DNA from: Rhizophlyctis rosea
Taxonomy: Eukaryota; Chytridiomycota; Chytridiomycetes; Rhizophlyctidales; Rhizophlyctidaceae
NCBI GenBank assembly: GCA_027596075.1
Contig: JADGJC010000033.1
Coordinates: 62,001 to 126,000, forward strand
Direction of reading: 5' to 3'
DNA length: 64,000 nt
In this document: positions 11,604 through 58,052 of the stretch, piece after piece
Position numbering within the stretch: position 1 is the stretch's first letter
Layout: each line of letters opens with the position of its first letter
Translations under genes and position numbers: made by a program
Notes under the pieces: model-generated
What the model was told of the DNA's origin: nothing
Database searches by the model: none
What the model saw: the letters and a program-made list of their open reading frames with translations, nothing else

Positions 11604-14244
11604 TCAAATCCCCAACTCCAACTCATCCAACCGATTCTGCAACTTCCTTCTCTCCTCCTGCGTCAAATTGGTATTCATCAACCGCTCCCTCAACGCCGTG
11701 ATCTGCCGCTGCGTCTTCAACTCCTCCTCCTGCTCCCGCCGTAGCGCTAGGTACGTCCCCTCTGTTATCCGTCCTGATAGTAGGAGCATTTCTAGAGAGT
11801 CGACTTTTTCTGGTGCTACAGGTGAGAGAAGAAGTGGTGTGTCAGCAAATGCAATTGAAAATCTCAGACAAAACCCAAATCCCAAAAACCCCAATGGAGA
11901 CAACCAACACATACCAGCTTGAATCTCCGGCCCAGCCCCACTCTCCAACCGTGACGGCAACCCAATCTCCATCCCCACTGGCACCAAACACGCCAACGGA
12001 AACACCCCGCCCTTCTCACTCCCCTCAATTGTCCCATACGCATACCCATCATCATACGCTAACCGCAACACAACCTTATCCCCACTCTTCAGCTCCAACT
12101 CGTCCGCCATAACCGGCTTATACGGATGAATGACATTATACGTCTTCCCAATCGCATCATCGTTGAGTGATGACTGCCGACTCCGCCTATCCCACCCAAT
12201 CCCACTCCACCGATCCGTCCCGTCCCCAGAAACCGGATTGAACGGTTGGGAAACCTGTGCCATCTCCGGTGGTTGCTTTGTGGACGTGACGGCCGTGACG
12301 GCCGCCACTTCCGGGACAGTGTTGGTATTTGGTTGTCGCCGTCGCGCCGGTAATCGGTGTAACGATGGTTGTCGAACGGGCGTGCTTGCCACCATTTCCT
12401 CATGTGCCGTTCCCCCCTCCGCCCCATTTGCCCCCGCCCCTCCCGCCTTGGACACCTGATTTAGCTTGTGCCGTCGGTACCCGTAGACGAAACCCCCTAT
12501 CCCCAATGTGATGATGCCGAGTGGTACGAGAACTGAAAGCAGTATTGTTGTGACATGCGATCCTGCCCCACCCGAACCCGACGACAGAATGACATCCCCC
12601 ACTAGTGATGCTGCCGATCGGATCCCCTCTTCGGCTGATATGTTGCCCCTCAAGATATCGATGAACTTTGGCGCGATGACCTGGAGAACGTCGGCCCAAT
12701 GCGGAGCGACGGCCGACGCAGGAACATTCAGAGCTTGTAGATTGTTGTTAATGAATGTGCAGTTGATAACTCCGCAAATGGAATCATTCGACGTCGAATC
12801 TGGAAGCGAAACGGGTTAAGTACGTTGTTTTGCCCGATCGGACGAATTTTCATGCGTACCTCTGATGAGTTTGATCATTGTCGGTGGCAAACCATGCGCT
12901 TTCGCCCTGGCGCGCTGAACCGTCTCCGACGTGAGGAACAGCAGAGCCATGGCTACCTCCGTATCATTCACATATTGACCAGTCTTGGTCATCGCAAGAT
13001 GATATCCCTGCAATAAAGACGCCGGATTCCCCTTCTCGTCCGCCGGCAGTGGAGCGACCTCTAGTGTCGCATTCCCCAATGTGCTCATTTCGGCCTTCGT
13101 CTTCGGATATGACGAGAGTTTGCCCCGCCAAAACAGCGCTTCACCATGGGAGAAATATCTTGACGTCGTTGCGTAATCCCACTCAAAAACCTCCGGCTTG
13201 ATGATCCCAGCTTTTGTCCAATTCGCCATGTAATTGAACATGGCGATACCTTCTGGCGAATTGAAGGTGATTTTCTGCGGATAATCGAATAACTGCTGCC
13301 CCTGTTGCGTCATGAGCCATTCCATCACGTTGTTGACGACTTCGTAATCTGTACGGGATTGTGTCAATGAGAAGACGCAGCCGAAGTACCTAAAAGCTCA
13401 ACGCACCTTTGAATGCGCTGATATAGCATCGAAGCTTGGAATTCCCTCTTGCCGCTTCTCCAGGAAGAACTGTGGCACACGCCTTTGGTATGTCTTCCCA
13501 TACCTGCGGAACAGTTAAGTTGTATCGCGCCAGCAGATCAGGACGATAGAAGAGAACCCCATAATCGGAATGCATGGGAAGAGCAACTAATCCAGATTGA
13601 ACGTCGAGATAATTCAAACATCAATGATCAGTGAGTATGTTTCGTGAGAGAACGGATGCACAACCATAACACTCACTAAGATGTCCAACCGATGAACTGT
13701 CGTCATTTACGATATCTGCTATCTGCTCAGTGATACGGGCACTCAAATTTGCGTAAATAGCGGCATTGCTCCGGCCAAAGTCGAAAAGGTCGATGAAATT
13801 GTCCGGAAATTCCTGCAGCCAGGCTACATCCAAAGCAATTAAATCGTATGACCCGTTGTTTGACCGTATTTGAGGATTGACGACATCATAATAATCGGCA
13901 TAACTGGATGTGTGCTGGAACATAAAAAATGTAAATAAAGAAACCCCTTCATTAAGTGACTGACATTCATACCGGTTGTACATTCACGTAAATTTGAATG
14001 CCTGTTTCTCGGGTAAATTCTGCCACAAGCTGATTCAAAATGTTTTGCTCTTCCACCGCCGAATCGTCGAATATGGGCTTCAGCATCACATTTATGGGAG
14101 CTATGGCCGAACGAGTATTTAGTATCATCGGCAAACAATTAAACCCACACAAGTTAGCAGGTCACACCTACCTGATTGACCAAAGACCACGAGCAGCCAT
14201 CCTAACCACAGAAGCAGGAACGTTGGCACTCTGGCCGCCTGCAT
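11604..14244 (-). CDS. Secreted solute-binding protein fused to TM and SH3
   Basis: Seven exons (14244-14172, 14100-13973, 13914-13677, 13586-13407, 13348-12860, 12799-11915, 11815-11604) join in frame to 734 residues. A signal peptide is clear (MQAARVPTFLLLWLGWLLVV). Residues ~24-400 match the bacterial ABC-type solute-binding protein family 1 (maltose-binding-like): NQLVAEFTRETGIQIYVNVQ, the hallmark LIALPMHSDYGVLFYRPDLL, VFEWDYATTSRYFSHGEALF and VAMALLFLTSETVQ. A single TM helix follows (~452-475, VTTILLSVLVPLGIITLGIG), then a disordered basic linker, a cytoplasmic SH3 domain (~588-645, NVIHPYKPVMADELELKSGD) and a C-terminal charged coiled coil. No permease is linked. The architecture suggests a type I receptor sensing a sugar or other small solute and signalling through SH3 partners; that role is inference. 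Confidence 0.85.
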
Positions 14245-19034: not shown

Positions 19035-22000
19035 ATGCGACCAATCATTAGCATTTTCAAGTTGCTCGTCACATCTACTCTGCTACAGCTCCTCCCCCTA
19101 ATCAACGCGCAGTACTTCCCAATTGACCCCAAATATGGATGGGACAACTGGAGCTGGTCCTACACATCAGATATAGTCGACCCACCACCAGCGTTTGGTG
19201 GTCATGCGGCCCTGATCCCCACCGGTCTCCCAATCTGGAAAGTAACATTACAATCATGGGGCGCCCTATCTTTCCACCATTACCTGTCATATGGTACATA
19301 TTGGGACCAGAAGTATGAGTATTTTGTGATGTTTCTGGAGGTTAGTCGGGAGAGGTTGTGTCGGCAGTGTATTCTTCAGTATGAATGAGTCCATACCATT
19401 GACCAAACTTGAATCGTATAGGGCGATAACCCAACGCTTGCACTAGATTTCAGATCAGAGGTGGATGATTTCACCTCCACGCCGGATATACCGATGAGTC
19501 AATATCTTGGGAGTACGACGCTGGCGAGCAATACATGGACAAGAGTGCTCATCCCTTGGAAGGACTTTACTGGACATGCATGTGATCGCTTCTACTTGAA
19601 GAATATCGCAGCGGTATGTGGATGGGAACAAGGCGGCTGACATAAACGCATCATTCATCCGGGATAATATCTCCAGAGCGCAACCACGGTACATTTTGCT
19701 GGGTATTTCGGGCCAGTAAGTATTCCCTTGTGTGTGCTGGGTTGAAGAGTACGCTGATGCAGTTGTCACAGGCATCTGGACCTCCCACTCCAACACCTCC
19801 ACCAATTGACCCTCCAATGCCATCAATGCCAGCAGAATGGGAGTTCATCACATACAATCAGAGTAGCGGCGGAGATTCAGGACTGATGGCTCAGTTCTAT
19901 TGCGACATGTACGACCCACCTCGCATATGTATGAGAATGGCCCATTCTCGATTCTTCCCAGCTTGAACTTGTCATCGATTATTGATCTACTCATTATGAT
20001 GACCAGATTCAGATTTATGGGATGTCAGCATTCGCGCTTACAGAGAGTAAGCATGGACGACCAGTGGCGCATTTCAGTATGAGACTGACGTCAGATCCCT
20101 TCACTTTTAGTACCACAGTCGGGATACCAGTCCCGCTGAATACCAGCAATGCCATGTGGAGTGACGGATGGTGGAGGATTAGACAACTGTTTCGAGTAGG
20201 CTCTTACATATTTCCGTCAAACCCGCGCGAATGGAGATTAGTTACTTATTTCTGGTTGAAAAGGATCCCAGCGACACGCAACTTGTTAGCGCCTATCACT
20301 TCCCGCATCCTGCGCTCGCATGTGGTTAGTGAGTCATCGAGTCCCGCCATTGAAGCTGATCTAACCAACATAAACAACAGCTCTGTGGAATGCCGACTTC
20401 TTCGAAATTGGCAATCCCGACGAGGCGAACACGCAATTGGTTGTATGGGCGCCGGAAATTTCGAATGACCTGGTGGGTAGGGATGCCTCTCATCTATGGC
20501 GCTTTCCACCTCGTGCTCACATGCTTCTCTCATTGTTCAGAAACACGTAGTGGGCGCATACGCCACGTACGTAAAGGACAGTCGGGTAGATGGTCGCGAT
20601 ACAGTGGTCGTTCATATTCAGACGAGAGTTGCAAACATCGAAGGTCAGTAGTAGTTTCCCGCACACGACTTCCCAGGCGGATCTTAAAATGCTTTGCTGG
20701 CAGGATACCCATGGGTGAATTCCCTTACCCCTAACTGCACCGACGACGCGCCCGCATGGCAATGCCCTGATCATATATGGTTCACAGATACGCAGATGGG
20801 TGCGCTACATATTGCGCAGGATCGCTTGTTCCCTCTGTGTGAGTTGTGTGCTCTTGCATCTACATTGAATATGCTAATTCTCTTGATATAGCAACGATGG
20901 CTCGGCAAGGTAATGACATGATGATGATGGGTGGTATAAGGCTTCTACTGATACCGGTATCATGTTCGCTTTGATGTCTCTAGAATATCGAGAGACTGGG
21001 TAAATTAATCGTTTGGTCAACCTGTATATGGAATGCACACTGACAGATTCGAAACATGCAGATATGACATCAACATGGATGTAAGTATTTCGATGTGCTC
21101 GCCTACCGTGGATTGTGAACTCAGATGGCGGTCACCTGGAAGATCCATCCCGCCGTATTTTCACTGACGTCGTATGGTGGCGTAAACTACGCGATGCCGG
21201 TCAACATCCGACTGTACCCGTGGCAAGTGAATCAGACGACGATCCACGCCTTGCAGCTTCCTATGCCACCACCCGTTGGTACGGGTTGGGGTTCTGCGTG
21301 GTGGCAGTCCTGGTATGTACCCGCGAATTGGGATACGATGATGCGAGTACGCGATATTAATCGACTGTGCGTGCAGGAATTTCACAGTCTTCAACAAGTA
21401 TATGAAGGCGATGAGTGATAATGGTAAAGTGCGGAGGACATTTGAGCAGTGACGGCTGATATCCTGGGTGTGTCTCATGCAAATGGACTTGCAGGGTACA
21501 AGAACACATTTCCTCTCCCGGTAGTCTATAACGGGGACACCCTTCTCAGTCAATTCTTGGGTTATCCATTTGGTGGTATGTACCGTTTTGGAATCCATCA
21601 CGTACTGAAACGTTCTCATCAATCATCACCCAGCAAATCTACTCACGGAAGATGGCCGGTAAGGGAAATCTCAGGAGCCTCTGTGAAGGCTCTTCTGATA
21701 GTTTCTGCTGGATAGATGTGGACTTGATGAACGAATGGAAGAAGCCTTCAATAACACACTGTGAGTAGGTGCGGTGCCAATTTGCTGCCGTCAAAAGACA
21801 AAGTAGTACTCACACATCCTCCCCAGTATGACCTGGTTGCAATTACCCGGAGCAGTGCAACAGCGATACACACTATCTCAGGAAGCTTTCCAAGCTTGGT
21901 TGCACAATACAAGTTATATTGCTCCGTTGGATGAGCCGATTTTCCATTGGTTGGACGCTGCAATATCAGTTGGGTTGGATAGTCAACCAGGTGGGTCCTT

Positions 22001-24659
22001 TGAGCCTCAAGGGACAATGAGGAATGACTCATGGGTAATCATCTCATCACCTATTAGGCTTCCAATATGGTCGAGGGTTTACTTCAGATTTTGTAAGTAC
22101 CATGATCGATGTCCTGGCACTGATTTTCTTATATTCTCCATCAGGTGCTTATATACCCACCAACTGGAGCGGCTCGCGTCAGTATAACGTTAGCGGGAAT
22201 TCCAGTAACAGCCAGAGACCCTCTGCAAGCTTTCAAAGCACTTTTGGTCGCTGTTGCGCAGAATGATCGATTACATGTCAATACGCCCACACTGACATCA
22301 ACTGAGGGCGGGCTTTCTGGATACCTTTCGTCGCGGTACACGACGGAGTACCAAGTGAGTTTTTGGGGCGCTTGCAAATGGTCCTTTGAAATGACTGATG
22401 TTTGGATTTGTGGGTAGGCTTCTATTAATATGAAAACTTTTTGGAATGGTTTGCTGGGTAGGTGTCATGTTCAGCGGTTGTTATGAGGCTCACTTCGGCA
22501 CTAACGGCCGTCATATCATCAAGATCATGTAATCTTCAACGGGTACCCTGCGCAACAAAGCCCGTCCTTTGGATTGATTGCACCTCGAGATCCTATTGTG
22601 CGTATGCCTCTGCGGTATTCGGGCAAGTCGTTCAAAAAATCTGACCAGGTTTCTACTCTTCCTTCAGCAAGTGGCGATCAATAACATTGTGTACAAGGTA
22701 AATGACTCAAAGTTGGACTTCTTCCGGTGACAACATCTCTTACGCAGTTTTGCAGAACATGTCTGCCGCAGATGCTTTGGCCAAAGCTTGTGCTGTGCGT
22801 TGTTCTTCCAAGTCTTCTATGACGCCTCATAACGCTGATGAGCATACACCTAGATAATCGACTATGCCACAATGCCTCCATGTGGCCCGTCACACTGGGT
22901 GGCCACACTTGTTGATGATCCAACCAAGAACAAAGCGACGGTCGTATATTCATGGGCAGCAAACCAGGTGAGCATGTCGCCGGATCCAATATGAGCAATT
23001 TACAGTGCCGCTGACATCGCCTTCCCGTCAGTCAGAAGTATGCCGCTTAGATCTCGCCGGGTCATACAAATTGCCGGTGTCGATCAAAGACTTTGTTTCA
23101 ACGTCGTACATCTCCTCGAAGTCTCGAATTGGCAAGGTGATGATCAGTCTTGCGTCACTCGGGGTTGTTTTGGAATGTGTTTTGCTTTCCATGTTCTTCT
23201 GGCAACGCAATGCTGTTGTCATCAGAGCTGCGTCTAGGCCATTCAGTAATTTGATCCTTGTCGGTGAGTCTAGCCTCGTGTAGATAACTGGATCGTTGTT
23301 CAATAACTAACATGTTTCTCCAACTGCCAGGCGCTTGTTTGTGCCTTTTTTCTGTCATTTGCCGAACTTCTCCCAACGGAAGTCTAAATTGGTGGCAGTG
23401 TTATGGCACATGTGAGTGTAGCTTTGAGGTACAATCAAACTTCACGAGATTGATTTGTGAACATTTCCTGCAAGACTGGTGGTTTGGAATGGGATTCGCC
23501 TTGAATCTTGGAGCGCTAGCCATGAAAACGTATCGAGTGGACCGCATCTTCAATAGCGATGATCCAGCATACCAATTGCCAGATTGGAAATTGGGATTAC
23601 ATGTTTTTGTCATCGTTTTCTTTGAGGCGGTGTTCTTACTGGTATGTCGGGATCTAATGCGGTCAGCATCCAAATCTCTCTGACTGATGGGTGTCTTTCA
23701 GATTTTCCAAGTGTGGGTGGACGACCAAGATTACAGCAAAATTGTGAATGTTCCCCAGCTTCGGTATGAGTTGGCTCAAAGTGACTGTCCTGTTACTAAT
23801 CAGACAGCCGTGATTCTATTGTATGCCGTGAGTATTCTTGCGTTTAATGTTTTGCACAATGCAACGCTAACGGTTTTTTCAGTACAATGCTATCATTATG
23901 CTGATTGCTGCAATCTGCGCGTTCCGCACGCGCAATGTAGATTCAGGTATTTATGCTTGTTGGTCAAACATCAACAGAACAATTGATGTATCATCCTGTA
24001 ATGTGTCCGCAGCTTTCAATGAGAACATTTTTACTGTGTCGGCGATTGGTCTTATTTGCGTAGTGGCCGTGATCATTGTGCCAGTGCTTTCATTGATTAC
24101 AGAGCCAGAGGCAACGTAAGTTCAATGAACTGTTGCTTGCCTTTGAGAACTAACAAGATCCACAACTTACTCGCCCAATCATCGCAGTTTCATGCTCATC
24201 TCTCTGGGTGTCATTTTCGCAACTATCCTTTCGACTCTTATCTTTGCATTGCCAAAACTCCTTGTTGCAACTGGGGTAATGAAAAGTGACACGGCCGCAA
24301 CCTCGCAAACCCCATCAGGGACACAGCCATCGAAGCGGTCAGCCAGGACCGGATCAATGAGTCATTTTGTCAACTCTTACGGCGACAATGTCATGATGAC
24401 CAGCGACTTCAGTGATCGGAATGGAGATAGAGATCCGTTTGCAACACGGAGCGGTGACAGGGGAATTGGGGCAAATAGCTCAGGCAGTGCACCATTTATG
24501 GACCGAAACGCATCTAGAAATGCAATTCGGGGTAGTAGTACATCCAACATCGTTGGTACCGCGAGTGGTATTGAGAGCGTGATCCAGTCATCAAAGGCGA
24601 TGAAAGGTCGACGGTATTCAAGATCAAAAACCGGATCTGAAGGAGATACTGCAGTCTAG
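19035..24659 (+). CDS. Class C (GABA-B-like) GPCR with solute-binding ectodomain
   Basis: A large gene of more than 20 short exons. A signal peptide (MRPIISIFKLLVTSTLLQLL) starts the protein. Exons to ~19720 encode a beta-sandwich resembling carbohydrate-binding modules (LALDFRSEVDDF, NTWTRVLIPWKDFTGHACDR), followed by a Pro-rich linker and a second beta-rich region. From ~20700 to 22990 the ectodomain shows solute-binding-protein features (VFSLTSYGGVNYAMPVNIRL, YPAQQSPSFGLIAPRDP, VAINNIVYKNMSAADALAKA). The 7TM core (~23090-24290) is class C: SRPFSNLILVG, the diagnostic TM3 WWFGMGFALNLGALAMKTYR with VDRIFN, then TM4-TM7 ending TFMLISLGVIFATILSTLIF. A Ser-rich cytosolic tail follows. Some junctions in the ectodomain are tentative, so it may be two SBP-like lobes or one. 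Ligand and G-protein coupling are unknown. Confidence 0.8.
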
Positions 24660-39795: not shown

Positions 39796-42700
39796 ATGTC
39801 GGAGACTGTCGTTTTCCCACGGCGTCCAGGCTTTGGCACAACGGGCCGAACAATCCAAGTGCGCACGAACTTCTTTCCCGTCCTATCGCTTCCTGGTCAA
39901 GATATCATTCAATATGAAGTCCACGTTGCCCCCGATGCCAATCCCCGTACCAATCGACGGTTGTATGCTTTGTGGGAAGACTTGAACTCAAACGGCATTC
40001 TGAAAAACACCAAGCCTGTTTACGATGGTCGGAAATACATATATGCACCGCGAGCATTGCCATTGAAAGACAACCAGGCTAATTTCACTTTGGAGTTGCC
40101 GGATGAAGAAGAAGACCTAACGAGGCCAAGACAGTGAGTCTATCCTGCCGCTGGAATCTCTGCGCATGACCTGTTAATCCGCATTCGACAGGTATCGTCG
40201 CGGACCTCGGAAATTCCGGGTCTCCATCCGCAAAATCGCTGAAATCAACATGCGTCGATTACATCTCTTCTTGGAAGGAAAATCTTTCGAGGCACCGCAT
40301 GACGCTATTGCTGCGCTGGATATCCTTCTACGGCATCGCCCATCCATGCTATACACAACCGTTGGACGTTGCTTCTACACGCCCGAAGGAGCTGCTCTCA
40401 TAGCCAATGGTGCGGAGTTGTGGCAAGGCTTTCACCAGTCCGTGCGACCATCCCCTCAGAAGATGTTGCTCAATTTGGACGTTTCCGCGACTGCATTCTT
40501 TGAGCCAGGTACGTTGCATGCCGTCTTTTTTAGGCTATATGGTACTAATACCATCTCCAGGGCCGCTGGTGGATATCGTCGCAAAAGTCTTGGGCAAGAA
40601 GCATGCGGATGAGATCAGGCAGCCTCTAACTGAACGTGATCGTCAAAAGGTGGAAAAGGTGTTGAAAAATATCAAAGTTATTACGACACATCGCGGCAAC
40701 AGCAGAAGAAGGTGGAAAATCGCCAAATTGACCACGTACTCCGCCAGTCGAACAATGTTCCCGATGAAGGAGGAAGGCGGACGGGAAGAGAGTGTGGCGA
40801 ATTACTTCCTACAGCGTTACGGGGCACCTCTTCATTACGAACACTTCCCATGCCTAGTGGTTGGGGATCCGTCTAAGCATATATACCTGCCGATGGAAGT
40901 GTGTCTGATCATTCCCGGCCAAAGGATTCTGCGGAAGCTCAATGAAAAGCAAACAGTATGTTGTACTGACTTCTCGACTCCGGCTGACCTATGCTCACCA
41001 TCTTACATCTATATTCAGGCGGACATGATTCGATTCACCTGCCAACCTCCGCATGTTCGGTCCAACAAAATCTCAAACGGGTTCAACCTGATGTTGACGG
41101 AGGACAACGAATACCTGCAGGATTTCAACGTTCGGCTGGGACGGGAGATGGCCACGGTCAACGCCAGAGTTCTTACAACACCGATGCTCTCTTATCATCC
41201 TTCCTCTCGAGAACCAGTCATCGCACCACGCGAGGGAGCTTGGAATTTGCGCGACAAGAAGGTGGCCCAGGGCGCCACATTGTTCTCATGGTCCGTGGTG
41301 GTGTTCGGTCACGAGAGGGATATACCAGTGCAAGCGGTGCAGAAGTTTTTGCGGGAACTCATCACGACATGTCGCGATACGGGGGTGGATGTGCGCAATA
41401 TGGCACCGCCCATTCGCCATGCGAATCCGCAGGGAAACATTGAGACCATTCTCAAAACGTCTTACATGGATGCAGGCAGTGCGGTCAGCCACAGGCCTCA
41501 GCTTGTGTTTTGTGTACTGCCAAACACTGGGGTCCCACTGTATGCCGAGATCAAGCGGGTGGCGGACACCGTCATTGGTATCGCGTCACAATGTGTGCAA
41601 GCTAAGCGTAAGTCTGGTAAATTCGACCGGTTGATCGCCACTCTCTAAATTGCATCGTTCAGATGTTTTCGCGGCCAAAAAGCAATACTGTGCGAATGTT
41701 TGCCTGAAGATCAATGTGAAGGTAACATTTTCAGGGTCCTTTTCCCATACTTGACAATCTTTGACAACCTTGTACAGCTTGGCGGGATGAATGCTTTCCT
41801 AGCAAATCAGCAGCTACCGTTTGTGTCAGAAAGACCTACAATCATCTTCGGTGCCGATGTAAGTCATGTGCTATATTGCCTGTGTTGACCTGTTGCACTG
41901 ACATCCATCTGCCAGGTCACACATCCTTCTCCGGGAGATCCATCCAAACCATCAATCGCCGCACTCGTGGGTGAGTAAAGTGTCAAATGGTTAGGACAGT
42001 AGTCAACGGCTAATCCTTGTGCAGGAACCATGGATGCACAATGTTCGAGATATGCGGCATCTATACGAATACAAAGAGGTCGGCAGGAGGTTATCAAAGA
42101 CCTTGACGGGATGGTTGTAGAATTGCTTCGCACATTCTACCAATACTGCGGATCGAAACCGATGCGGATTGTCTTCTACCGTGATGGTGTGTCCGAGGGG
42201 CAGTTCCTGGAAGTTGCTCGCGAGGAAGTTGCGTCTATCAGGAAGGCGTGCTTGACGCTAGAAGGTACGATGCAGGATTTTGCCTTGATTTGTACAGTGG
42301 ACTTATTTTGGGACGTTTCCAGCGGATTTCAAGCCAACCATCACATACCTCATCGTGCAAAAGCGGCACCATGCTCGATTCTTCCCACTGCGGAAGGAGG
42401 ATGCGGACAAGTCTGGGAATGTGCTGCCGGGTACCGTTGTGGAAAGCGGTGAGTGTTCTGGAATCGATGATCTAAGTCATTGGCGCTTCAGCCATCTAAT
42501 GCCACCTTCTTCCAATCAAACAGGGATCACACATCCGTCAGAGTTTGGTATGTGCCAGGAGTCAAAATGTGTCGATGCATGGTCAGTACTAACAAAACAT
42601 GACCTCGCAGACTTCTACCTGGCGTCACACCCCGGGCTGCAAGGAACATCAAAGCCAACGCACTATCATGTACTTCATGATGAGAATTCATTCACCGCGG

Positions 42701-44927: not shown

Positions 44928-47900
44928 ATGTCCAACGAGGCCCCAGGGCACGACGTCGAACTGCACGACTTCCCGGAAAGCCAAGAGGAGGCGGGTGCCT
45001 ACGTTGACGCCGGAGACGACGATGCCCGCAACCTCAATGAAATCTCTGCACCCGTCGGTCTTCCCATCGGCATGAACCCAGCAGGCATCATCACCGACGG
45101 GGGCATCAAGGAATATTCAGCAGTACGGCAGTCATTTGAAGAGAAGGCGGAGTTGAACGAACTACAGCACAAAGCAGACAGGGCTCCAGCACCGGAGGAG
45201 AAGCATGCAGAGCTGTCGGATGTGACGGTTGAAAATGAACCAAAGGCTACTTTGATTAAGCCTGGGAAGGAGGAACAGAAGAAGATTTCATACATAACAT
45301 TGTTGACACGCTTCTCAACACCAACCGAGAAGTTGTTGATGGTCGTTGGATGCATTGCGGCAACTGGTAGGTCTCAGTCTCACTTCGACAACAATATGTG
45401 TTTGATTGGCACTAACATCTTATGAAGCTGCCGGTGTGATCTTGCCCCTAATGACAATTATCTTCGGTGACTTGACAAATTCTTTTGGTGCCAAAACGCT
45501 CGGTTTGCCCGTTGAGGACTTCCAAGGTTCAGTTAACAGGTGAGTTGTGGGCTTTTACATTTGCATTCATGAGTTCAGCTTGGCTGACACAATCTTGTCT
45601 ATCATTAAGGACCACATTGAAATTCATCTGGCTCGGTATCGGCATGTTCTTCGCTACATACATCTACATGTCAACCTGGCTCTACACCTCCGAAAACATC
45701 TCCCACCGTATTCGTGAAGCATACTTAGCTTCCGTCCTCCGTCAAAACATCGGTTACTTTGATGCTGCTGGGTCTGGTGGTGGTGCCGTATCCACACGTA
45801 TCATCACGGACACGCAGTTGGTTCAGGACGGAATTGGGGAGAAGTTCCCTATGTTCTTCATGAACTTCGCATGTTTCATCGCGGGTTTTGTTGTCGGTGA
45901 GTGAAGTCCACTTGAGCAATATGATTTGGACATGTTGATAACACTCATTGTTTTTCCAGCCTTCACTAACAGTTGGAAACTTACGCTTGTGCTGTTGTGT
46001 TGCGTGCCTTTGATTGGTGGTGCCGCCGCGGTCATTGGTAAATTCGCGGGCAAATACACCCGCGAAGGTTTGGCTCAATACGCTGTGGCTGGTGATGTCG
46101 CCGAAGAGGTGAGGTTTCCATTCTTTGTTATAACACATTTGAGTGGTTGTCATGCAGAATGTACTGAACTTATTTTGTTTCACTTTCAGGCATTCGCATC
46201 TATCCGTACCGTTGCTGCGTTCATGGCGTCTGAAAAGCTTGCGCAGAAATACTCAGCGTTCCTTGCCACTGCCGAAAGAGCTGGTATCAAGAAACAGGCC
46301 GTCATCGGAGCAGGGTGGGGAACGATTCAGTTGGTTATTTACTGCACATACGCGTAAGTACCTTCACTTATATTTATATTTGTCAAACGGAGTAGTGGAG
46401 CTAATCGCGGTGGTCCCCATTCCCAGGCTTGCCTTCTGGTATGGTGGGAAACTGATCGTATCAGGAGATCTCGAAGTGGGAGCCGTCATGACAGTCTTCT
46501 TCTCCGTTCTTATCGGCGCTTTCGCTCTTGCCGGAACTTCCAGTGAAGTTACCGCCTTCAGTTTCGCCGTTGGCGCTGGTACCGGATTGTTTGCTGCCAT
46601 TGACCGTGTTCCCCCAATCGACTCCAAATCAAAGGAAGGCTTCGTTCCGCAAAGCGTCTCCGGCCGCATTCAAGTTGAGCACGTCAAATTCCGTTACCCG
46701 TCCCGTCCCGAGGTTGTCATCCTTCATGACATGACTCTTACCATTGAGCCCGGAACAACATGCGCTTTAGTTGGATCCTCCGGAAGTGGAAAATCTACCA
46801 TCATCCAGCTCCTCGAACGTTTTTACGACCCGGAGAGTGGTACCATCCATGTCGACGGCCAAGACATAACGAAATTGAATGTCAAGTGGTTGCGTCAACA
46901 AATCGGATACGTCACCCAGGAGCCCATTCTTTTCAAGGGAACGTTGTGGGAAAATGTCGCGGACGGATTGATTGGCACCCCCGATGAGCACCTATCTAAG
47001 GAAGAGAAGTTGCCGAAGATTATTGAAGCTTGCAAGTTCGCCAACGCTCACAACTTCATTACGGCATTGCCTTTGGGGTACGATACCATGATTGGTGAAA
47101 GAGGTCTGCTCCTATCTGGTGGTCAGAAGCAGCGTATCGCCATTGCCCGTGCCATTGTCAAGGACCCGAAGGTTCTGTTGTTGGATGAGGCAACTTCTGC
47201 TCTGGACACCGAGTCGGAGAAGCTGGTATGTACTTCATTGAGCACATTCTGTATTTGAAGACTTTTTCTGACCGACCCTCTCCAATCATTCTTCTCCAGG
47301 TGCAAGAAGCATTGGATCGTGCCGCCCAAGGTCGTACCACCATCGTCATTGCCCACCGTTTGTCTACCATCCGCAACGCCGACCAAATCATCGTCATGGA
47401 CCAAGGAAAGATCATCGAAGTCGGCACGCACGACTCCCTGGTAGCGAAAGAAGGTGGTTTCTACGGCCGTCTCGTCGAAGCACAGCAAATTTCCGCAAAA
47501 CAACACGAAACGGACGAGAAGGAAGGCAAAGTCAAGCCCGAAACCCCCATTGACCCCGATGCGCCCATCGCTCTTGACGGCGCTGATGCCAAACCCGGTA
47601 CCCTCCAACGCCGGCCTTCCCGCTCCAAGTCCGTCCATTCCATCCGTAGTACCCGTTCACGCAAATCTCGGTTGAGCGTAAAGAGCGCGACCAGCGCTGC
47701 GCACAGCGGTTGGGTCTTCTGGCGAACAATGCAGATGAACAAGCCGGAGTTCCACCTCATCCTCTTGGGCCTGATCTTCGCATGCATTACTGGTGTTACT
47801 CAACCTGTTTTTGCCGTCTTATTCGGTAAAATCATCCTTGCGCTCTTTTTGGCCAAGGTTGATCCAAGTGGGCCGAACTTTTGGGCTGGAATGTTCCTTG

Positions 47901-49597
47901 TTATTGGTAGGTCACAATCTTGGAGTCTGTAGCGTACAAGCACATCTTAACTTCCTGTTCTTTGTGTAGGCGCTGTTAACTTCTTTAGTATGTTCGGAAA
48001 GTTCACACTCTTCGGTGTTTCTGGCGAAAAGCTCACTACTCGGTATGTATCATGTCCATTTGCAAGGATGTAATCAATGATCCTAACTTTTTTCTTTTTT
48101 TTGATAAATAGTCTTCGTGACCGTTCCTTCCGCTCCATCATGCGTCAGGAGATTGCATGGTTCGACCTGGAGAACCATTCCGTCGGTGCCCTTACTTCCA
48201 ATCTCAGCAACCGTGCACAAGAAGTTCAGAACATGTCCGGTCAAATCGTTGCCAACTTGCTCGAGCTCTTCGCCTCCATCTTCGGTGCCGCCATCGTCGC
48301 TCTCGTCACCGGATGGAAGTTGGGTTTGGTCGTCCTTGCTTGCCTCCCTCTCCTCGTTGCGGCCAACAAGATGAGAATGGACTTGATCCGGAAAGGTAAC
48401 TTGGCTACCAAGGCGTACTACGAGTTGTCCGCCCAAGTTGCTTGTGAAGCTGTTGCCGCTATGCGTACCGTTGCCGCCCTTACCAAGGAGGACCAAGTGG
48501 GCGTACGATACCACCACGACCTCGAGGAGCCCCTGAAGATTGGCCACCGTAACGCTTGGGGTAACACTGTCATCTACGCTGCCAGCCAAACCATTTCCTT
48601 CCTCATCAACGCCCTCACGTTCTGGTACGGTGGGAAACTCTTGGACAACGGCGAAATGGATGTCATGAAGTTCTTCACTGTCTTTATGGCCGTCACGTTC
48701 GCGTCCCAGGCGTCTGGACGTGTCTTCAGTATGATGCCCGATGTTGGTAAAGCCAAAGACTCCGCCTCCGACATCCTCGACCTCATCGCCCGTGTTCCTC
48801 CCATTGACTGCTGGTCTCCTGAAGGCAAGAAGTTGGACAAGGCTTCCATGAACGGTCTCGTCGAGTTTAAGGACGTCCACTTCGTCTACCCCAACCGCCC
48901 CACCATCAAAGTGCTCCAAGGACTCAACCTCACCGTCAAACCCGGCCAATTCGTCGCCCTCGTCGGACCATCCGGTTGCGGTAAATCCACCACCGTAGGC
49001 TTGATTGAACGTTTCTACGACGTCACCGGCGGCTCAGTCACAATTGACGGTGTCGACCTCCAAAGCTCGAACATCGCCGACCTCCGCTCCATCATCTCCC
49101 TCGTCGGTCAAGAACCAAATCTCTACGACATGACCATCAAAGACAACATCTGGTTCGGTCTCGCCACTGAGCCACCAGAAGCCGAAATCATCCAAGCCGC
49201 AAAAGACGCCAACATCCACGACTTCATCATGTCGCTACCAGACGGATACAACACCTCGTTGGGCGGGAAGGGAGCACAATTGTCTGGTGGGCAAAAACAG
49301 CGTGTTGCTATTGCACGTGCGTTGATCAGGAAGCCGAAGGTTTTGTTGTTGGATGAGGCTACTTCGGCGTTGGATGCGACTAGTGAGAAGGTTGTGCAGG
49401 CGGCGTTGGACCAGGCGGCGAAGGGACGGACGACGATTGCTATTGCGCATCGGTTGAGTACTATCAAGAACGCGGATGTTATTTACGTGTTCAAGGAGGG
49501 GAGGATTGCGGAGCAGGGAACGCATGAACATCTGATTAGCTTGAAGGGATTGTACTACCAGTTGGTAGTGCAACAGGATCTCAGCGGGGGGCATTAA
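44928..49597 (+). CDS. ABCB-type full transporter (P-glycoprotein-like)
   Basis: Nine exons (44928-45366, 45428-45539, 45610-45896, 45960-46108, 46190-46353, 46427-47225, 47300-47906, 47970-48042, 48112-49597) give 1371 residues in a TMD1-NBD1-TMD2-NBD2 layout. The N-terminal ~130 residues are acidic and cytosolic. NBD1 has Walker [10 protein letters not shown] (~500), signature LLSGGQKQR and Walker [16 protein letters not shown]2 has Walker [10 protein letters not shown] (~1160), signature QLSGGQKQR and the same Walker B. Both ATP sites look catalytically complete. The linker ([20 protein letters not shown]) is basic and Ser-rich, typical of phosphorylated linkers in Mdr proteins. It is probably a plasma-membrane multidrug or lipid exporter; substrate is unknown. 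There is no mitochondrial presequence. Confidence 0.95.
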
Positions 49598-50305: not shown

Positions 50306-52379
50306 ATGACGAACTTGCCTGCCAATGCCGATACGGCCGTTGTGGCCGAGAAGTACCGTGCAGTCGCGGACTATGAACCGCAGCACCACGACGAGATTAA
50401 GTTGACTCTTGGCAACCAAGTCATCATACTCCATGCTTATGATGATGGTATGTTCTGGCTTCCCAAAAATCGATTTTCTGATGTGTCTCACACCAGTTCT
50501 AATCTTATTTTCTTTGGCAGGATGGGTGCTGGGACAGAACGAGACCACAAATGCCATCGGGCTCCTGCCCAGGAATTTCCTCGCTCTCATGGGCTCGGAA
50601 GATGCATCCAAAAAGAAAGAAACGCCCTATGCCGTCAAACGTACTTCCTCCTTCATGCACACATCGGTTGGGAAAATGTCTCTAGCGCAACCCTCAGATG
50701 CGTCCAGCATCCATTCGTCCTCATCCCAGAACCACCAACAACAACAGCCGCAACAACAGCAGCAACAACAACGACAGGATCATGGTCAAACTAGTGAGCC
50801 TTCACAGCTCAATCGGACACCTACCTCAGCATCCCAGAAGGGCCGCAGTCGTGCTGGATCTCGCCCCGCTCCAATGACTGATGACAATCGGGCCACTTCA
50901 CCTTCACCATCCCGTGGTCCTCCATCTGGAATCAAAGCTCGTTCCCAATCCCTTTCCCGTCCTGCCCTTGAAAAGTCGCAGGGGTCCGCATTGCCTCACT
51001 CAGCCCTGGCGGCTCTCCGTGCTGCTATGGACACTCCCCGGTCGCCGGCAACGTCTCCTGAGGCAGAAGAGGAGAGGAGACAGGCTGCTACAAAGAAGTT
51101 GGCAACCGTCACTATGCGGAGATCAGTGAGGGCAAAGGTGCCGGCAAACATTGGAAGTTTGAGGGTGGCTGTTGTTGGTGATTCCGGAATCGGCAAGGTG
51201 AGGATTGAAGGGGATCAAATTAGATATATGCAGAATGAATAAACCCCAAAATTTCAATTCTGGCAGACATCCTTGATCCAAAACTTCCTCGGTGTCGCCG
51301 AAGTGCAATTTGCAGAAACTTTCACACCGTCAGAAACCATCCAGGAAGTTCGCGCCTCCACCATCCCTACAAATGAATTGCACACCGGCGAAGATCCCCT
51401 GAACGTAACATTCGTAGACACACCCGGTTTCGGTATCTCAATGGACGCAATGGAGACCATCCAACCCATCGTTGATTACCACCTAAAACAATTTCAACAA
51501 ACCGACGACATATTCGCCCGAGACGCCCCTATCCCAACTTTGGTGAACTTCCTCAACTCCGGCACTGGAGCTCATACCCATGTGGATGTGTGCATTTTCG
51601 GTATCCTTCATCGGTTAAAGCCTGTGGACATTGAGTTCATGCGTCGCCTCACGCCCTATGTCAACATCGTTCCTGTCATTGTCAAGTGCGACACTCTGAA
51701 GCCCACGGAGTTGTTCCAGTTGAAGGTCTCAGTATTGGAGGGACTGGGCAAAGCAGGGATCCCCATTTACGGATTCGGTCTTGATTTCCACGAGTTGATC
51801 GACCTGGCTCGTGCCGGAGTATCCGGTGCCCCACCATTCGCCATCTCCAACCCGGACGTTGCCTCCGCCGGCAGCACTCCAACCCCCGGTATCGTCAACG
51901 AATTCGAATCCCTAAAGAACAACATTCTTTACCACCACATCGATGACTTGCGCCAACTGACGGCCGAACGCTTTGCAGAGTGGAGGGAACGGAACAGGCG
52001 GGATATGGAAGCAGCGGCGGCAAAGGAACGGGAAATGAGGATGAAGTCTGAGAGGGAAGCGCGGGCAGCTTTCGATCATGGGAGTGTGGGGAGTGGGACG
52101 CATATGGGGTCTATTGGGAGCAATGGGAGCGGACAGACATCGGCGAACAAGAAGAAGGGGATCAATGCTTTATTTGGGAATGGGCCTGGTGCTACGGTTG
52201 TGGGAGGTAATGGGGGCCCAGTCTATACGTATAATAACAACCAGGGCGCTGGGGTGCGGCGGACGGATAGTGGGGCGGGGAATGGTGGGGCGCGGGGAAA
52301 GAGTATGGATGATCAAGAGGGAGGGTTGGCGGGATTGGCTAGTAGTTTGAAGCGTCAGGTGTGGACGAAGAAGGGTTGA
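50306..52379 (+). CDS. SH3-septin-type GTPase fusion
   Basis: Three exons (50306-50447, 50521-51197, 51267-52379) encode 643 residues. An N-terminal SH3 domain (~15-73; YRAVADYEPQHHDEIKLTLG, DDGWVLGQNETTNAIGLLPR) is followed by a long disordered region rich in Ser/Pro with a poly-Gln tract (~150-165), then a septin-like GTPase. The P-loop GDSGIGKTS is at 267-275, G3 DTPGFG at ~324, and the G4 position reads VIVKCDTL where canonical septins have AKAD. Septin-family blocks are clear: HRLKPVDIEFMRRLTPYVNI and YHHIDDLRQLTAERFAEWRE. A charged helix (~505-530) and a Gly/Asn-rich tail close the protein. It may act at septin or actin cortical sites through SH3 partners. Septins rarely carry SH3 domains. 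Confidence 0.85.
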
Positions 52380-54493: not shown

Positions 54494-57400
54494 CTACTCT
54501 TCAAAGTTCGCAATTCCATCAGCCGACACCGTCACCTTCCCATCAGCATCCATCGTCGCAAAATAGTCCTCCCACTCCAAATGTCCATCCGCCACCACGT
54601 CCGGCTTACAATCCTTGTCCCCTACATCATACACATCCGACGGTACCCAACACTTGAGCTTCGCGGATCGGATGGCTGGGTGAAGGAACCGTTGCTCGTA
54701 ATCAGGAGGACCTTCGTATTGGGGTTCAGGGTATTGGTATGGACGTGGTTCTGGGATAGTTGGTGCGGGCGAGGGTGTTTTCTGTTTGATACTGGGAGAT
54801 GGCGTGCCCCTGTTGGCGGGATTTGGTGATGGTACAGCGAGAGTCGGGGCAGGGAAAGGTGCATCATCTTCATCATCGATAATGACGGTGTGGTTGCTGG
54901 TGTTGGCAATCTTCTCCGTATTCTCGACAGAAGGGATCCCGGCAGTCCCCAAATCCTTCTTCTCATCGACCTTCTCCGGGGTAGTGAGTGCAGGCAACGG
55001 TGTTTTTGATTTATTGTTGGGAGATGGAGGTTTGAGTGCCGGCGCTTTCGGCGTGGGAGCAGGGAACGGTGAATCATTCTCATCATCGATGATGACAGTG
55101 TGATTGCTGGCATTCGGGCTTTTCTCCGCAGACTCAACCGTTGGGATCCCAAGCGGCCCTTCCTTAACATCCTTCTTCACATCAACCTTCTCCGCCCACT
55201 TCTCCTCCCCTTTCTCCTCTGCCGGCTTCTGCAGAATGGGCATCAAAGGGATCATCGGACTCACTGGACTGATCTCCACCAATTCCGGTGTTCCCTTTTG
55301 CGCGGCCTGCTCCGCTATCTCCTGCTCCTTCAGGGCAACCTCCATCGCCATATCCGCCGGAACCGTCTTCATCAAATCGTCATAAATGTTGGCGTGGTGG
55401 TGCGCCGCCAACGTGATGAGGAATGCTAGAATCATCAGGGCCGCATGTACCCAGGCTTTTTTAAGCAGGAAGAGGCACAACATAACGAATTCGTGGATGT
55501 ATAACGCAAGGAAGAGTTGTTGTGATGTACGGTGAAGGAAGAAGCCGCCGGTTTGGTGGACGTTGGCGTAAATATACCTGATTGAAAAAGGATGATGAAT
55601 AATGTCTCTTGAACGAACATATCTGTGATTTTACAGCACTCACTGCATATTGTGTGTATAGACTGTTGCCCAAATTCCAAAGTAAATGAGCGCAATGAGC
55701 GAAACCATTGGTGCAATGACTGCGTACACGATCCCCAGCTGGATGAATCCGTTACCAACTGGCGAATTACGCAAACGATATTGCAAAAACAATTTCCATC
55801 AACTTACAGTTGCAATGAACGAATGCTTCGCCAGTGCCACGCCTGATTGAAACTTTGGCGGCTTGCTCTGGGTCGCAATTTGCCGTGGTGTGGAAGTGAA
55901 AATCATCAAAATCAGCGGTTTAAGGATCAGCGGTACGATTTGAAGTAGTTCCATTGCTGGACCGAGACCTCCTTGCAAGATGACGTAGTTGACAAAGAAG
56001 TTCGAAACGGTGGGGATGGTGGTGGCGAGGATGGTGATGAGCTCGTTAGGGTTTGACCATACATCTTGAAGGACTTTGAAGATGGAACTGCTGACGGTGG
56101 AGACCAGCAGGACATTGAAGACCTGAAATTGGCGGTCACGAAGTCTGCTGTGTGAAAGAAAATATTTCAAGCATGATTTCATACCAAAAATCCATAGTAC
56201 TGCCCAACAACCGCATTTTCGATTTCTCCATATGTTACGATGCCCGACAACTTTGAGAAAACTGGTTGGCATCGATATAAGTGATTTACATTAGCGGCGG
56301 CAAAGTGAATGTGACGAGAATGCAACTTACATCGCAGCAAAATAGGCAGAATCGAATACAGTATGGACACAAGGATGGAGGGCAAAACACCTTGAAGGAA
56401 CCCCTTTGTCCTGGCCGGTAATTCATGGAAGAAGCTCAAAGCCGGGTATCTATTGGCCAATTCATCCAGATTCGCCAGACTTTGGATGGCAGTAGCTGGA
56501 AGGGCACCATTCATGAGCTTCATCGTAGGAAGTAAATTGCTTCTTTTTCCGTTGTCATACTCACTGATAAAACCCCAAGATACCACCAACCCAACCACCC
56601 CTCCATAAGCAACAACAGTCCGGACATTCCTCTCAAGATACTCCATCCCCAAATTCTCCCACACAATGCTCTCCGGTTCAACTCCAGCGTACTTGTCCCC
56701 CATATACCCAGGAATGTGCTGCAGGTTTGCCCCAGCCGCAACATGGGGAGAGAACAGATCCGAAAAGATAACGAAACAAGAACTATCGGCGTGCCGTTCC
56801 TGCGACAAAATTTCGTCGCGCTTCTCCTGGAGTTTCACCTCGTTCTTGTGCAACTCGTCACGGTAGAAGATGATCGAATCGACTTCCGGGCCCGTGAGGC
56901 CTAGGAATCCCGTCTTGTGCTTGGGCCTCAAAGATCCTAGATGGGGATCCCTTCCGTTCGTCTCGATATCCATATCCTCCTTGGCACCAGCTGTCTTCTT
57001 GTGCTTCGCGACAGCCTTTTGGAACTTCACAATTGCCTTTTCCAAGTTGCCACGTGCCTTCAGATGGTCCGAATGGAGTTCGTTCAAATGCTCAGTGTGC
57101 CGGTGCAAGATGACATCCACGACGCGTCCCGGTTGGACACGGTCGAATAGGGCATAGAGTTTGTCTCTGTCTTGCCAAGCCTCTGGGATGTCGCGCAATA
57201 GCAGTGTGTATCCTCCCAGTTGAGTCTTTTGCTTCTCGGCAAGGAGCCACTCGTGGTGGAGTTCCGAGGCCTTTGCGCACATTCGCAAGATGAAGAATAT
57301 AGTTGCAGCTGCATCTGACATTAGCAATCTCAACTGGCGTGCCCAAATCAATTCGAACACACCAATGTAGATATAGCTCAGAAGCAAATTCGACCAAAAT

Positions 57401-58052
57401 CGAGGCGCTTGATCGTCACCCACATTACCAAACGTCAAGATGTTGAGTCCCACCAACTTTGCGTCACCGGTCCCGTGGATTGGCCATAAGATTACCACGC
57501 CAGCAACAGAGATGATGGCAAACAGCAAGAATAGCTGACGACAGTAGTAGACGACGGCGTAGTTATCTTCACCGGCGCGAGCAACAAAGGTTTCCTCGTC
57601 GACGCGCCAGGGCTGCAGGATCCATGTGAACCAGCCCTTTGCAAGGGGTGGTGACCGTTCAGGTTCCGGAACAAGGAACGTTCTTGGTGCTAAGAGAGTT
57701 GTTTGGGGTAAGCAAGACGGTTGGTCTTGTTGTGGGAGCGACTCTAACACTTGCCAAAGATCAGAGGTACTCTCGACCGTATGAGCATAAAAACCACGGC
57801 AAACGCCAATAAGATACCGCCGTTCAGGGAGATCGCAGATATGAACGCGGGTATATTTTCATCAATGGCTGTCGAGAGCAGAAGGTCAAACCAACAAGGC
57901 GGTCAGGAGGTGCCAACCAACTTTCGCTTACCGGCTCTGACTTTGTCATTAGTGGTGGTGTTGCTACTTTGACGTCGATCCAGGTGATGATACAGCTGGT
58001 CCTGGTGGTCAGCCAGAGCTGCCACCACCGACCACGCAGCGTTGACCGCCAT
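54494..58052 (-). CDS. CSC1/TMEM63-type osmosensitive cation channel
   Basis: Seven exons (58052-57932, 57868-57755, 57689-56331, 56261-56185, 56122-55808, 55738-55644, 55577-54494) give 1054 residues. CSC1/OSCA/TMEM63 proteins are mechanically or osmotically gated cation channels. TM0/TM1 (AFISAISLNGGILLAFAVVF) is followed by the family motif IFAPRTFLVPE, a cytosolic RRM-like domain (YTLLLRDIPEAWQDRDKLYA; GPEVDSIIFYRDEL), SSCFVIFSDLFSPHVAAGAN, and the pore-helix block with WENLGMEYLERNVR, SGIVTYGEIENAVVGQYYGF and FVNYVILQGGLGPAMELLQI. A long Pro/Ser tail carries a tandem repeat. Intron 2 uses a GC-AG boundary. An in-frame ATG at 58190 would add 46 residues. Confidence 0.92.
54830..55165 (-). 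repeat. Two-copy repeat in the CSC1-like C-terminal tail
   Basis: Two tandem units of about 70 residues. Each contains a GIP(T/S)VE..EK segment, then SNHTVIIDDE and (S/A)PFPAPT, followed by a divergent Pro/Ser spacer. Unit starts are ~210 bases apart (near 55150 and 54940). It lies wholly in the disordered cytosolic tail. Confidence 0.8.
57690..57754 (-). other. GC-AG intron in the CSC1-like gene
   Basis: The 65-base intron begins GCAAGT and ends CTCTTAG. Only this boundary keeps frame and restores the conserved family junction LIF|APRT. GT alternatives nearby (GTGTTA) shift the frame. GC donors with the AAGT context are a known minor splice class. Confidence 0.85.

Follow-up and report, generated by a model that had tools for sequence, protein, structure and literature searches.

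A class C receptor gene of the chytrid Rhizophlyctis rosea with an ectodomain probably related, remotely, to type II solute-binding proteins

In the zoosporic fungus Allomyces macrogynus, 78 class C G-protein-coupled receptor (GPCR) genes have been reported, with an SBP_bac_1 ectodomain in eight sequences, next to 14 class C genes in S. punctatus, three in B. dendrobatidis and one in R. oryzae (Krishnan et al. 2012, PMC3251606). Three gut fungi (Neocallimastigomycota) are reported to have 51, 24 and 32 class C receptors; almost half of these roughly 100 proteins carry a type II solute-binding protein (SBP) domain similar to SBPs of sugar uptake, none is described with an ANF domain, and the same fungi, which live on plant polysaccharides, also carry type II SBPs that contain transmembrane helices (Seppala et al. 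2016, PMC5168858). Across 1357 fungal species, 918 glutamate-class sequences were counted, enriched in Blastocladiomycota and Chytridiomycota and nearly absent from Ascomycota and Basidiomycota (PMC12842992). No ligand of a fungal class C GPCR is given in the available text of these three reports. Zoospores of R. globosum, another chytrid, swim towards GlcNAc; how chemotaxis works in aquatic chytrids is described there as poorly understood (PMC12115818). Here we describe a class C GPCR gene of the chytridiomycete Rhizophlyctis rosea, located at positions 19035–24659 (plus strand) of a 64,000-nucleotide stretch of contig JADGJC010000033.1 (the window), whose ectodomain probably contains a divergent type II SBP-like domain. 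An earlier reading made from the sequence alone (the sequence-only reading) had proposed this architecture as novel, which was an overstatement, since SBP_bac_1 on fungal class C GPCRs was in print in 2012 (PMC3251606) and the type II SBP in 2016 (PMC5168858).

The gene is composed of 33 exons encoding 1193 residues in a single frame with no stop, and its 32 introns, of 52–81 bp, are all GT-AG. A spliced protein-to-genome alignment, run with a second script, recovered this exon set apart from a fusion of exons 19 and 20, which makes residues ~598–610 uncertain, and the omission of the stop codon. Both models derive from genomic sequence and protein comparison, and they are not fully independent because the same R. 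rosea protein, P0001, guided both. P0001, a full-length relative from isolate HK097 (NCBI model), has the same extent as the window protein and is 69% identical to it (812 of 1178 aligned residues), the ectodomain (448/597) being conserved as well as the seven-transmembrane (7TM) part (191/251). This conservation, together with the 7TM match given below, indicates that the gene is more than a chance arrangement. The gene is confirmed as real and its coordinates as exact: positions 19035 and 24659, already proposed by the sequence-only reading, are the start codon and the stop of the spliced model, and the four sequence strings cited there are all found in the protein. Homologue searches at an expectation value (E) of at most 1e-3 retrieved 4 of 7990, 2 of 6691 and 9 of 7997 scored proteins; apart from one of Allomyces macrogynus, all of these belong to R. 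rosea. No identical public protein was found among the candidates listed (0.55–1.75 of the query length), and a public gene model at this place may be missing or split; other proteins of seemingly the same assembly did turn up.

The 7TM core matches 7tm_3 (PF00003) at residues 810–1060 with E 1.4e-38 and 133.4 bits, against a curated cut-off of 33.5. The closest sequences in the PDB are GABA-B receptors (E 1.2e-16), followed by mGluR and CaSR from ~5e-11 (a 1218-residue draft of the protein was the query). On these matches the protein is assigned to the class C (glutamate) GPCRs, and the class C, GABA-B-like 7TM predicted earlier is borne out. Six of the seven helices are visible in the hydropathy of the draft, and the AlphaFold model of the paralogue P0007 contains seven long helices at residues 598–851, with a block mean predicted local distance difference test (pLDDT) score of 56–85. 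Among 33 close family members, C880 in transmembrane helix 3 (TM3) and C968 in extracellular loop 2 (ECL2) account for 100% of the residues present at their positions, and K901, R904 and E1006 are invariant wherever a residue is present. In class C receptors, the TM3 and ECL2 cysteines pair with each other. A nine-cysteine domain was not found before TM1, the stalk holding just two cysteines, 751 and 783. In addition, G-alpha (PF00503) is matched above cut-off at six places in the genome, on contigs C212, C23, C428, C536, C115 and C357.

The receptor belongs to an expanded family. P0001 or P0005, a second R. rosea protein, matches at least 25 places in the genome besides the window (38 candidates scored per search), 23 of which were spliced, with C45 and C151 left out; four stretches with five more distant 7tm_3 receptors were also spliced, the alignment being forced for these five. 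The models at all 28 loci comprise 1058–1247 residues, and 14 of the 23 close ones are free of stops. In the ectodomain the close paralogues share 34–46% identity with the window protein, and in the 7TM 41–51%; for the five distant receptors the ectodomain figure is 19–25%. At least 24 receptors with the window-type ectodomain, the window gene included, are therefore present in this genome, and their number suggests a repertoire of different specificities. Over the whole genome, 7tm_3 is matched by 65 exons, which fall into 46 clusters on 40 contigs, and yet an exon-wise search with ANF_receptor, whose sensitivity is lowered by short exons, gave no match, the same pattern as that reported for gut fungi (PMC5168858).

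Regarding the models themselves, the one spliced on contig C27 agrees with HDV00_001235 (P0005) of R. rosea at 1231 of 1231 residues, and the idea of two alleles at that locus, raised by exon-wise identities of 72–99%, was dropped on this account. Three further HDV00 proteins are 99.0–99.8% identical to the models spliced on C225 and C613, and the window probably stems from R. rosea HDV00 or from a near-identical source. The best counterparts between isolates HK097 and HDV00 are only 69% (P0001 and the window gene) and 64% identical (P0002, also of HK097, and the locus L054); R. rosea as currently named may comprise more than one species.

The relation of the ectodomain to SBPs becomes visible only by profile–profile comparison with many paralogues, the Pfam models remaining below cut-off. 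A deep ectodomain profile was built from 38 sequences (the window protein, nine NCBI models and 28 genome models) and compared by hhalign with a profile of ten bacterial SBPs, taken from the 40 listed of 326 plasmid records and found with the SBP domain of a neighbouring gene (window 11604–14244, see below). Two of these ten are named sugar SBPs and five others adjoin sugar or carbohydrate permease genes. The match has a probability of 89% (E 2e-6) over 292 columns, and of 94% (E 2e-7) over 285 columns when the neighbour's domain is added to the SBPs. It is collinear, covering approximately positions 100–407 of the 417 of the SBP profile, and it places SYGGVNYAMPVNIRL on the GKL-ALP segment of the SBPs and NIVYKNMSAADALAKAC on their end, in agreement with where the sequence-only reading had put both strings. 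The observed score of 64.9 compares with a top score of 23.9 in 100 shuffles of 12-column blocks, and the probability stays at 57–92% when each of the ten bacterial sequences is dropped in turn. Subset profiles gave 70% (33 close members) and 81–82% (23 genome paralogues), and residues 600–750 alone 19–46%. The match is also specific: a type I control profile of similar depth (nine sequences, seeded with a LIV-type protein of a plasmid record that an Allomyces ANF fragment matches weakly) reached 0.13% against the ectodomain profile and 92% against the Allomyces ANF domain. Type I and type II profiles gave 0.3% against each other, and a permease profile and a single ANF sequence each gave 0.3% against the ectodomain. 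A remote homology of residues ~400–742 to type II (family-1) SBPs is thus very probable, and the family-1 relation proposed from the sequence holds in this remote form, at 89–94% over 285–292 columns. For the first ~100 residues of the binding domain, which stay unaligned, such a relation is unproven.

The resulting layout is as follows, all features being on the plus strand.

19035..24659, plus strand: class C GPCR gene, 33 exons, 1193 residues (spliced model and repeat spliced alignment; 69% identical to P0001).
19035..19112, plus strand: N-terminal hydrophobic stretch, probably a signal peptide, residues 1–26 (hydropathy peak at residues 4–22).
19113..19780, plus strand: N-terminal module, residues 27–182, with a hint of a carbohydrate-binding-like nature (CBM30 at E 0.028, below cut-off; strands in the low-confidence P0002 model).
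19781..19825, plus strand: proline-rich linker, residues 183–197 (from the sequence).
19826..20436, plus strand: segment between the linker and the binding domain, residues 198–312, unmatched by SBP or type I profiles.
20437..22865, plus strand: putative divergent type II SBP-like domain, residues ~313–745 (~400–742 align to bacterial SBPs; hhalign 89–94%, 285–292 columns).
22866..23121, plus strand: short stalk without a nine-cysteine domain, residues 746–809 (cysteines 751 and 783 only; a beta hairpin in the P0007 model).
23122..24257, plus strand: seven-transmembrane core, 7tm_3, residues 810–1060 (PF00003 at E 1.4e-38; GABA-B best by PDB sequence).
24258..24659, plus strand: cytoplasmic tail, residues 1061–1193, and stop (spliced model).

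Several results weigh against the SBP relation. Shallow profiles are silent against the SBPs, whether built from six sequences (1.3–4.1%), from the window protein and nine NCBI models (1.4–1.9%) or from the window protein and five distant paralogues (1.2–3.6%), and the positive result depends on paralogue models that were spliced with an aligner written by the author. Used singly, the SBP domain of the neighbour gave 0.4% against the ectodomain profile; residues 305–410, which should hold the beginning of the N lobe, are unaligned at 0.14–0.42%, and residues 440–550 alone gave 0.8–1.7%. The AlphaFold models of the paralogues P0002 and P0007, made from 11-sequence alignments, have a mean pLDDT of 54.9 and 60.0, and the 50 Foldseek rows for each among the matches listed are all class C receptors, with no binding protein; these models neither support nor refute the fold of the ectodomain. 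In direct searches, the final window protein has no Pfam match outside the 7TM at E 0.01, and with E up to 10 the ectodomain gives no more than isolated chance matches in Pfam, NCBIfam and PDB sequences. SBP_bac_1 (PF01547) is unmatched in the full window protein, and in six ectodomains at E up to 10; at that threshold the same six gave one unrelated Pfam match (E 0.75) and one in NCBIfam (E 0.042), each in one member, and a single ribosomal match (E 1.5) in a PDB profile search. Eight R. rosea relatives have no ectodomain Pfam match at E 1, and outside the 7TM the draft protein had one weak Pfam match, DEC-1_N, which falls on the proline-rich linker at 12 bits against 29.2 (E 0.11). HMMER filters, it should be said, remove most weak matches. 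The sequence-only reading had looked to an InterPro-type check to find the 7TM together with an SBP domain: PF00003 does appear above cut-off, and neither PF01547, PF13416 nor any other ectodomain Pfam model reaches it. An exon search of the whole genome with SBP_bac_1, of similarly reduced sensitivity on short exons, found two places, both away from the 7tm_3 loci.

In front of the binding domain, residues 198–310 alone are unaligned to the SBPs (at most 1.7%). The N-terminal module had been described from the sequence as a CBM-like beta-sandwich, a description that is unsupported in that form: CBM30 is matched at E 0.028 in one of seven sequences, scoring 14.8 bits where the cut-off is 27, and a PDB profile search returned four chance ribosomal matches. 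Strands do occur in the low-confidence P0002 model, and a carbohydrate-binding-like nature is a hint only. The module does not seem to repeat the segment that follows it (0.16%).

In class C receptors and SBPs, the ligand closes the two lobes, and in the receptors the stalk transmits this closure to the 7TM, which activates a G protein. The proposal that follows starts from what is directly supported, namely the gene, its 7TM class, the remote homology of most of the binding part, the expansion of the family and the G-alpha genes. The protein would be a plasma-membrane chemoreceptor of the soil chytrid Rhizophlyctis, comprising, in order, a signal peptide, the N-terminal module, a two-lobed type II domain, a short stalk and the class C 7TM. 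The type II domain would descend from family-1 bacterial SBPs, and a small soluble ligand, for which a mono- or oligosaccharide released from plant or microbial polymers is the favoured candidate, would close its lobes; the closure would be relayed via the stalk to the helices, probably within a dimer, and the 7TM core would activate one of the cell's heterotrimeric G proteins. The detailed fold, the dimer, the closure, the class of ligand, the coupling and a sensing role in zoospores or rhizoids are what we infer beyond the sequence comparisons. We give the reading in which the type II binding domain serves as the ligand sensor a probability of about 0.7, and a sugar as the ligand a chance just under even.

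The question of the ligand leads to the most serious competitor, a type II fold whose ligand is an amino acid, a peptide or some other non-sugar solute, or one that has lost its ligand function in a GABA-B2-like partner subunit, which we regard as quite possible, if somewhat below even. Many solutes are bound across the class of type II SBPs, the homology to them is remote and the family is too divergent for SBP_bac_1 detection, and the closest solved 7TM is that of GABA-B; on the other side stand the two sugar SBPs and the five neighbours of sugar or carbohydrate permeases in the profile, which describe the profile and not the ligand of the receptor. An unrelated, lineage-specific fold that resembles SBPs by convergence or chance would account for the missing HMMER matches, the unaligned start of the N lobe, the silence of the shallow profiles and the weak AlphaFold models. 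It is nevertheless improbable, because a collinear match of ~290 columns, with a score of 65 where 100 shuffles reach no more than 24, holds through the jackknife and is specific by comparison with a similarly deep type I profile.

That the protein is an ordinary class C GPCR whose Venus flytrap is of the ANF type (type I) is highly unlikely. Class C ectodomains are usually of type I and the Foldseek rows listed are class C receptors, though the 7TM part alone would yield these; against it, the profile that recovers the Allomyces ANF domain gave 0.13% here, and the exon-wise search of the genome had no ANF match. The ANF ectodomain was rejected on these two results, and the early view that the ectodomain is not a type I flytrap is upheld by the same 0.13% and by the absence of a Pfam match. 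Equally slight is the chance that the gene model joins two separate genes or represents a decayed copy. The model comes from genomic sequence and protein comparison, and stops occur within 9 of the 23 close paralogue models, which decay or aligner errors may explain, but a single exon (23032–23263) spans the passage from the stalk to TM1; with every intron GT-AG, no stop in the frame and P0001 of identical extent, a pseudogene or chimaeric model was rejected.

If the type II sensor reading is true, a binding domain of a second superfamily (type II) has been joined to a class C core and has later diversified in one lineage, and if their ligands are sugars, these receptors would be direct candidates for the sensing of substrates. 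A survey based on Pfam only would miss the nature of the ectodomain in this receptor family.

The neighbouring gene mentioned above (window 11604–14244, minus strand) has seven exons and encodes a 734-residue single-pass protein, with an SBP_bac_1 match (E 5.5e-17), a transmembrane helix recognized by eye and an SH3_9 match below cut-off (E 5.3e-6). Compared with the 40 plasmid-borne bacterial proteins listed, many of them rhizobial, its SBP part shows 22–29% identity. The joining of an SBP to an SH3 tail looks unusual, and no paper combining SH3 domain, solute-binding and chytrid was found in the literature searched. A second SBP_bac_1 gene piece (L027 4505–6464, contig C175; E 4.2e-8) has an apparent C-terminal transmembrane helix and a short tail, and its contig has no 7tm_3 match. 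A bolder picture, which is doubtful as a whole, is that of an odorant-receptor-like repertoire of about two dozen Rhizophlyctis proteins, each with a lectin-like module, a hidden type II sugar domain and a GABA-B-type 7TM, which would read the breakdown of plant polymers, with the single-pass SBP protein with the SH3 tail as a second, non-GPCR branch. The window also contains an Argonaute piece with PAZ, ArgoL2 and ArgoMid (40404–41648, plus strand), two ATP-binding cassette (ABC) transporter pieces with ABC_tran in each, probably one gene (46143–49597, plus strand), a septin (51243–52379, plus strand) and a membrane protein of the RSN1/PHM7 type, from the calcium-channel 7TM family (56179–57858, minus strand).

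Compared with known systems, the receptor shares with GABA-B receptors the closest 7TM by PDB sequence (E 1.2e-16) and a stalk without a cysteine-rich domain, and differs in the ectodomain, which in GABA-B receptors is of type I. With the family-1 ABC SBPs (SBP_bac_1) it shares the collinear profile match (~100–407 of 417), but it lies below Pfam detection, its first ~100 positions are unaligned, and the domain is fused to a 7TM with ~300 residues in front. The SBP_bac_1 receptors of Allomyces likewise combine 7tm_3 with a type II ectodomain, lack the nine-cysteine domain and belong to a large expansion in a zoosporic fungus; there, however, Pfam detects SBP_bac_1 and most fungal members are reported with ANF, whereas in R. 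rosea Pfam detects no SBP and the genome search no ANF (PMC3251606). The gut-fungal receptors also have type II domains and no ANF was found in them, but their SBPs are found by InterPro, they belong to a different phylum, and an extra N-terminal module is not described in the available text of that report (PMC5168858). Because the Allomyces and gut-fungal reports precede this work, the kind of receptor is known; divergent, expanded Rhizophlyctis receptors are not described in the open-licence literature searched, in which no paper on GPCRs of Rhizophlyctis rosea was found. What is new here is the divergent, Pfam-invisible and expanded version in a chytrid.

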